Positions 30,817 to 64,000 of a stretch of DNA of 64,000 nt are shown in pieces. The translations under genes were made by a program, and so were the position numbers. The number at the start of each line of letters is the position of its first letter. Within the stretch, counting starts at the first letter, position 1. Below the pieces are notes generated by a model. It was not told the origin of the DNA. It did not search any database and was given only the letters and a program-made list of their open reading frames with translations. The DNA lies in contig JAJYXQ010000043.1 of the NCBI GenBank assembly GCA_021796385.1, positions 128,202 through 192,201 on the forward strand. Direction: 5' to 3'. The DNA is from Thermoplasmata archaeon (lineage in GTDB: Archaea; Thermoplasmatota; Thermoplasmata; Lutacidiplasmatales; UBA184).

Positions 30817-30862
30817 CTTTTCAACACTCCTTGGAATGGGAAATGGGGCGGGCCCGCGGGGA

Positions 30863-30896
30863 GTTCCGGAGAGGGAGCCGGTACGGCTCCCCACCT
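30863..30896 (-). other. T-loop intron of tRNA-Lys (34 nt), position 59/60
   Basis: Central helix TTCG/CGGA (one G-U), 5' bulge AAA, 3' bulge ACT, then an intron stem of 11 positions (GGTGGGGAGCC/GGCTCCCTCTC, one mismatch) closed by GTACC. Cutting AA^A and AC^T gives the seven-base loop TTCGAAT between perfectly paired T-stem arms. Confidence 0.8.
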
Positions 30897-30935
30897 TTCG
30901 AACCCCGGACCAACCGGTTAAAAGCCGGATGCTCT

Positions 30936-30966
30936 GTCCCGGGCCAGGGCTGGTGCCCAGCGGCCT
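30936..30966 (-). other. D-loop intron of tRNA-Lys (31 nt)
   Basis: A bulge-helix-bulge can be drawn: central helix CCCG/CGGG, 5' bulge GCA, 3' bulge ACA, flanked inside by GGCC/GGCC and GCTGG/CCAGC pairs with loop GCA. Cutting after the second base of each bulge (GC^A, AC^A) restores AGCCCGGCA-GAGC, the standard archaeal D-arm. A CA repeat makes the border ambiguous by two bases. Confidence 0.75.
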
Positions 30967-30996
30967 GCCGGGCTGAGCTACGGACCCACCCCAACT

Positions 30997-63922: not shown

Positions 63923-64000
63923 CGGGCCCGCCGGGAGTTTCGGGTCCTTATCGCTCCTCATGGATGGGTTTCGAGCGACGGACCTTTCGAACCCGGGTTC
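63923..64000 (-). tRNA. tRNA 3' part with a T-loop intron, cut by window edge (isotype unknown)
   Basis: Only the T-arm and the 3' acceptor strand are in the window. T-stem CCGGG/CCCGG pairs perfectly; the spliced loop is TTCGAAT; acceptor strand CGGGCCC with discriminator G follows. Between the two arms 49 nt are inserted (63937-63985). The 5' acceptor, D-arm and anticodon lie beyond 64000, so the amino acid cannot be stated. CCA is not encoded. Confidence 0.75.
63937..63985 (-). other. T-loop intron of the edge tRNA (49 nt), position 59/60
   Basis: A strict bulge-helix-bulge: central helix TTCG/CGAA, 5' bulge AAA, 3' bulge ACT, then GGTCC/GGACC and TCGCTC/GAGCGA inside the intron. Cutting AA^A and AC^T gives TTCGAAT. 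Position and both bulges are identical to those of the T-loop intron of tRNA-Lys. Confidence 0.75.

Follow-up and report, generated by a model that had tools for sequence, protein, structure and literature searches.

A twice-interrupted tRNA-Lys(UUU) gene and recurrent non-canonical tRNA introns in Thermoplasmata, with a predicted α′2-type splicing endonuclease lacking special loops

A soil archaeon of the Ca. Lutacidiplasmatales (class Thermoplasmata; genome G000) carries a tRNA-Lys(UUU) gene that is interrupted in both the D-loop and the T-loop. It is the sole tRNA-Lys(UUU) found in the genome; the search for an intact UUU copy elsewhere in G000, suggested in an earlier note on this DNA, found none. 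We hold with high confidence that this is a single functional gene, whose introns would both be excised at bulge–helix–bulge (BHB) motifs by an α′2-type splicing endonuclease (EndA) and whose exons would be sealed by RtcB. The intron kind is known, its enzymatic and phylogenetic setting is unexpected, and the gene is very probably functional. The case is built on sequence: the anatomy and single copy of the gene, its conservation, covariation, clean intron losses, and the architecture of EndA.

In the prevailing picture, multiple or non-canonical tRNA introns are tied to endonucleases with special loops, and Euryarchaeota have single canonical ones (PMC4090602, PMC4033280, PMC12397907). Few euryarchaeal tRNAs contain introns, with one canonical intron each (PMC4090602). 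The α4 and α2 enzymes of Euryarchaeota cut canonical motifs only, Korarchaeum, whose enzyme has a specific loop, being the sole α2 exception (PMC4033280). α′2 enzymes are described as having a narrow specificity (PMC6379350, PMC4033280), and the absence of a loop could explain strict EndA specificity (PMC12397907). Non-canonical introns have been reported for three thermophilic euryarchaeal methanogens (PMC3218864), and introns, one or two per gene, have been noted in pylT (PMC9071458). The paper on the Ca. Lutacidiplasmatales genomes used tRNAscan-SE in archaeal mode, and the word "intron" is absent from its main text (PMC9287336). We found no description of such introns in Thermoplasmata in the open-access literature.

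Within the window, i.e., the whole 64,000-nt stretch of DNA analyzed, the precursor spans positions 30849–30987 (139 nt) on the minus strand, to which all window coordinates below refer. Exon 1 (30967–30987) supplies the 5′ strands of the acceptor stem and the D-stem and the D-loop up to position 20, where intron 1 (20/21; 30936–30966, 31 nt) is inserted. Exon 2 (30897–30935) runs from position 21 through the 3′ strand of the D-stem, the anticodon arm (UUU), the variable loop, and the 5′ strand of the T-stem to T-loop position 59. It is followed by intron 2 (59/60; 30863–30896, 34 nt) and by exon 3 (30849–30862), which adds position 60, the 3′ strands of the T-stem and acceptor stem, and the discriminator G. 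The rpoH gene (Rpb5 C-terminal domain, PF01191; 30490–30816, minus strand) lies 32 nt downstream and served as the syntenic anchor.

In silico splicing yielded a 74-nt tRNA-Lys, identical at 65 of 74 positions to the uninterrupted tRNA-Lys(UUU) in a Thermoplasma MAG (L140). ARAGORN recognized the spliced form as one tRNA-Lys(ttt) and called no tRNA in the precursor. Rfam and ARAGORN searches of the 64,000-nt window missed the gene, as did the Rfam RF00005 search of the whole G000 genome at E ≤ 10. The anticodon loop is a plain, uninterrupted 7 nt, and both introns lie outside the 37/38 site. No group I or II self-splicing intron family of Rfam was found in the window, and the inserts measure 31 and 34 nt. 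The earlier note had described a tRNA-Lys(UUU) with a 31-nt D-loop intron, a 34-nt T-loop intron, and none at 37/38; its coordinates and lengths proved exact. Its statement that all stems are paired is nearly right, but slightly too strong, as the spliced tRNA has one U–U mismatch at 27–43 and a U–G pair in the acceptor stem.

Inspection of the exon–intron junctions revealed the BHB motifs as previously described, with 3-nt bulges (GCA/ACA and AAA/ACU) and 4-bp central helices. On the D-side, folding and covariation place the 5′ strand of the helix in the exon (CCCG, 30969–30972), followed by bulge GCA (30968–30966), and the 3′ strand in the intron (CGGG, 30938–30941), followed by bulge ACA (30937–30935). 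Two-sided compensatory changes occurred in three of these four pairs. The outer side of this motif is an internal loop, because A14–G15 face the 3′ bulge. On the T-side, comparison of introns pairs exon residues 54–57 (UUCG, 30899–30902; bulge AAA, 30898–30896) with intron residues CGGA (30865–30868; bulge ACU, 30864–30862), the latter strand being mostly CGRR across 81 distinct introns. Both Lys introns are thus 3-4-3 motifs, with the two 3-nt bulges and the 4-bp central helix by which archaeal BHB motifs are defined.

The D-side pairing was strongly supported by the alignment of 39 distinct D-arms of equal intron length. In this set, 92.6% of the cells were paired and 11 of 16 pairs had changed on both sides; none of 500 shuffles equaled the observed pairing or covariation score, and pairing fell to 35–46% when the partners were slid. 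Across 83 distinct D-loop introns (57 of them 31 nt long, as here), the exon–intron central helix was 94% paired, as against a mean of 72% and a maximum of 80% in 5000 permutations. The T-loop central helix was 98.9% paired in the set tested, and its intron side was restricted to CGRR almost everywhere. Two-sided change is rare in this motif since the exon side, T54–G57, is nearly invariant. Family f11, the sole one with C55, has UCCG in the exon opposite CGGA in the intron.

Unconstrained folding of the precursor gave the D-loop motif as the dominant structure (central-helix pair probability 0.94–0.98) and the T-loop motif as a minority state (about 0.05). The assignment of the latter therefore rests on comparative evidence. 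We discarded the other T-arm register, favored by the unconstrained fold, as it needs a local GAAC that is absent from many relatives, and the 81 introns back the BHB motif. The T-loop motifs are not all strict: among 19 T-loop introns examined in two genomes (G000 and the relative G038), 10 had a central helix of only three pairs plus a mismatch.

The locus was present in 99 of the 103 genomes of the family, which cover several genera. The Lys-UUU anticodon-arm pattern was matched in 91 genomes and was single-copy in 90 of them; at every family locus inspected at the sequence level, the anticodon arm belonged to the interrupted gene. The D-loop intron was retained at all inspected loci of the family, always with 31 nt, and the T-loop intron was precisely missing, without a scar, in the congener G001. 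All 30 family loci with flanks have the gene next to rpoH, and so do intact relatives such as Thermoplasma; this shared neighborhood makes the interrupted and the intact versions positional orthologues. Two loci stood apart. Genome G088 contained three tRNA-Lys(UUU) anticodon arms (on C27, C105, and C143) and is probably a mixed bin, and G010 had a second Lys-like tRNA, probably Lys-CUU, with a T-loop intron only (C7:17785–17865).

These data bear on whether the gene is real. That standard tRNA finders do not see it and that G000 is a fragmented draft could suggest an assembly error, a pseudogene, or a chance tRNA-like sequence. We consider this explanation practically negligible, because the same two intron positions recur in genomes of several genera, the D-motif covaries strongly, the exons are well paired, and the gene is the single copy for an essential tRNA. 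The comparison of genomes refutes it. It is likewise very improbable that the inserts are retained in a mature tRNA with expanded D- and T-loops. Their bodies are short stable hairpins, which could in principle protrude; however, they pair with the elbow residues G18 and T54–G57, the exon–intron pairing covaries as a splice motif, and orthologues lack one or both inserts without a scar.

To return to splicing, the precursor would form two independent BHB motifs, one built on the D-stem and the other on the T-stem. D-loop residues 16–18 would pair with the 3′ end of intron 1, and T54–G57 with the 3′ end of intron 2. In each 3-nt bulge, a homodimer of the two-unit α′2-type EndA would cleave between nucleotides 2 and 3, and the exons would then be joined by RtcB. 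As the motifs do not overlap, the introns could leave in either order. Elbow residues G18, U55, and C56 would be held in the central helices until splicing; with G18 and T54–G57 occupied in this way, the elbow could presumably form only after both introns are gone. Cleavage, ligation, and intron release, with EndA alone sufficing, are proposed by analogy with known families.

G000 has one EndA gene, at C79:4620–5780, a single open reading frame with two PF01974 domains, and no second subunit or paralogue was found in this genome. An EndA match was present in 93 of the 103 family genomes, nearly always single, and all 35 genomes sampled across the class had a single EndA locus. Profile alignment with solved structures gave the unit order N-C-N-C, as in α′2 enzymes. 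Neither unit has the CSL: a gap lies opposite the nine-residue CSL stretch of Aeropyrum, and the CSL inserted in the Archaeoglobus chimera (3p1y) was missing. The ASL is absent as well, the ASL residues of the ARMAN-2 enzyme (4fz2) being insertions relative to the profile. The putative catalytic residues Y325, H333, and K364, a triad in the second unit, were invariant in 50 sequences. The AlphaFold2 model of the single chain (pLDDT 92.8) gave TM scores by target length of 0.91 with the Methanopyrus subunit fusion, 0.88 with Archaeoglobus, 0.76 with Thermoplasma, and 0.57 with ARMAN-2. By alignment and model, EndA is predicted to be an α′2-type, two-unit single chain.

This assignment lends no support to the inference in the earlier note that the genome should have an endonuclease that is heteromeric, or broad in specificity for some other reason, and the EndA paralogues (α-, β-, or ε-type) that the note suggested looking for were not found: there is one EndA, of α′2 type by its N-C-N-C order and with neither CSL nor ASL. 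An (αβ)2 heterotetramer was ruled out by the single gene and the absent CSL. An ε2 enzyme (αN-α-βC with ASL) was ruled out too, as 4fz2 (ε2) aligned to EndA in permuted order and the ASL is absent.

The ligase was less straightforward. RtcB was not found in the G000 assembly, a fragmented draft that is 91.9% complete, and was found in the other 37 of 38 genomes tested, congeners included. The gap in G000 is therefore most likely due to incompleteness, and we dropped the idea of a different ligase. In one genome (G264:C26:48059–50770), the RtcB match was split into two pieces about 1.35 kb apart within a 958-aa open frame, which probably reflects an intein.

The Lys introns extend well beyond the family. 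The same two introns were found in the tRNA-Lys(UUU) genes of families f2, f3, f7, f9, f11, f12, f22, f29, f30, f32, and f33; in all, roughly twelve families of Thermoplasmata share them. Single losses also occurred in the class, of the D-loop intron in G108 and G122 and of the T-loop intron in G113 (f14) and G388. A Methanomassiliicoccus MAG (L133) has the gene with both introns; records of Thermoplasma, Cuniculiplasma, and Poseidoniales have it intact. Two further named Thermoplasmata MAGs showed a T-loop intron only (AUK033, L194) and a D-loop intron in tRNA-Lys(UUU) (ETNP2_MAG_1, L159). The earlier note had regarded such introns as not established as a norm for Thermoplasmata. The host indeed belongs to this class, but the extent was underestimated: far from being confined to one odd gene, the arrangement is the usual state in this family and across much of Thermoplasmata.

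Other tRNAs are interrupted at the same sites. A family-wide T-loop intron pattern, which yields chance hits and was therefore controlled with the reversed pattern, typically matched 4–13 times per family genome, as against mostly 0–1 for the control; in families f15, f19, f27, and f31, it stayed near the control level. In G000, we located T-loop introns in six tRNAs (Lys-UUU, Arg-UCU, Asn, Asp, Gln-CUG, and Arg-CCG) and D-loop introns in Lys-UUU and Arg-GCG. The tRNA-Arg(CCG) gene enters the window with its 3′ part (63923–64000, minus strand; the gene runs to 64045) and has a 49-nt intron at 59/60 (63937–63985). The relative G038, listed as 100% complete, has 13 T-loop introns at exactly 59/60 and three D-loop introns (Lys-UUU, Arg-GCG, and initiator Met), i.e., at least 16 non-canonical introns in one genome. 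Glu-CUC, Ser-CGA, Ser-GGA, Ser-GCU, and Arg-UCG are interrupted in G038 and intact in G000, with Arg-CCG the reverse; the spliced tRNA-Glu(CUC) of G038 equals the intact G000 gene at 73 of 73 nt. Some anticodons were not located intact in G000 (e.g., Gly-GCC, Gly-UCC, His, Pro-UGG, and Leu-UAA) and may be unassembled or carry an intron missed by the search. A tRNA-Trp of G000 (C75, near 162906; L070) has a canonical long intron that contains box C/D-like motifs.

This occupancy can be read in terms of origin. The T-loop introns may be portable elements that moved between tRNAs, always into a single site, because the same TTCRA partner sequence and a T-stem are available in every tRNA, with the Lys introns as old residents; such an origin is compatible with splicing by EndA and RtcB. 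The exact 59/60 position in 13 tRNAs of G038 and six of G000, and the different occupancy in these relatives, speak for such a spread, whereas visual comparison of intron bodies from different tRNAs revealed no obvious resemblance. We regard this origin as quite conceivable, though we lean somewhat against it.

A second question is how an enzyme of this type could serve so many introns. As the Lys motifs are 3-4-3, a special EndA loop would be unnecessary for them. More generally, most of the motifs are near-canonical despite their non-canonical positions, so an EndA without CSL or ASL could process them; the 3-bp central helix and mismatch in about half of the T-loop introns make some tolerance of the enzyme likely. 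It may instead be that EndA is truly broad in specificity owing to something besides CSL or ASL, for instance an accessory factor or its fuller first unit, and that non-canonical introns accumulated because of this breadth. In this respect, PF01974 barely or not at all detected the first EndA unit in G114, G124, G189, and G283, which represent f15, f19, f27, and f31, the four lineages in the sample where T-loop introns did not exceed background; the other 31 sampled genomes of the class had both domains. The roughly half of the examined T-loop introns with just a 3-bp central helix would also suit a broad enzyme. However, EndA carries no inserted loop where the CSL or ASL would sit, the best profile match is the Methanopyrus fusion enzyme, described as constrained in specificity (PMC6379350), and the correlation between introns and the first unit comes from few lineages, possibly one clade. 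We treat breadth of this kind as a tentative and rather doubtful explanation.

Our own broader reading is that much of Thermoplasmata has lived with many non-canonical tRNA introns under an α′2-type EndA without CSL or ASL, that the rule requiring a loop fails, and that the T- and D-loop introns are portable, with helices that hold the elbow residues until splicing. We put this forward as a plausible account, a little short of an even call. If an α′2 EndA without these loops does handle many introns, the proposed need of loops for intron diversification fails. The whole Lutacidiplasmatales family and much of Thermoplasmata depart from the picture that links loop enzymes and introns, which makes the idea of EndA–intron co-evolution directly testable with one recombinant enzyme. 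There is also a practical side: as standard finders miss interrupted genes, essential tRNAs look absent. In a 2014 comparison of Methanomassiliicoccales, no tRNA-Lys was found in M. luminyensis, and it was suggested to sit in missing sequence (PMC4153887); a doubly interrupted gene, as in Methanomassiliicoccus MAG L133, could explain this absence.

Among known systems, Thermoproteales and other Crenarchaeota (Pyrobaculum) are alike in having short BHB introns in the D- and T-loops, more than one per tRNA, with 20/21 and 59/60 among the listed positions (PMC4090602). They differ in their (αβ)2 heterotetrameric EndA; the enzyme here is predicted to be of α′2 type without CSL, and the non-canonical introns found lie mainly at 59/60, with a few in the D-loop. 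ARMAN-1 and ARMAN-2, with ε2 EndA, likewise combine multiple tRNA introns with a homodimeric single-chain endonuclease, the homodimer being presumed in our case; their ε chains, however, are αN-α-βC with an ASL, unlike the N-C-N-C order without ASL found here. Korarchaeum, which has an α2 EndA and non-canonical introns, was called the sole such archaeon in 2014 (PMC4033280), but its enzyme reportedly has the specific loop known from (αβ)2 enzymes, which the Lutacidiplasmatales family lacks. Thermoplasma acidophilum and Ferroplasma belong to the same class and have the same two-unit single-chain α′2 type. The T. acidophilum enzyme, with 289 aa, is however shorter and is classed as narrow (PMC6379350), and in Thermoplasma relatives the tRNA-Lys(UUU) gene at this locus is uninterrupted. 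The closest solved structure is that of Methanopyrus kandleri EndA (PDB 5x89, a subunit fusion), which also lacks CSL and ASL and comes from a host with non-canonical introns; it differs in being naturally made of two subunits, (αβ)2, and is described as constrained in specificity.
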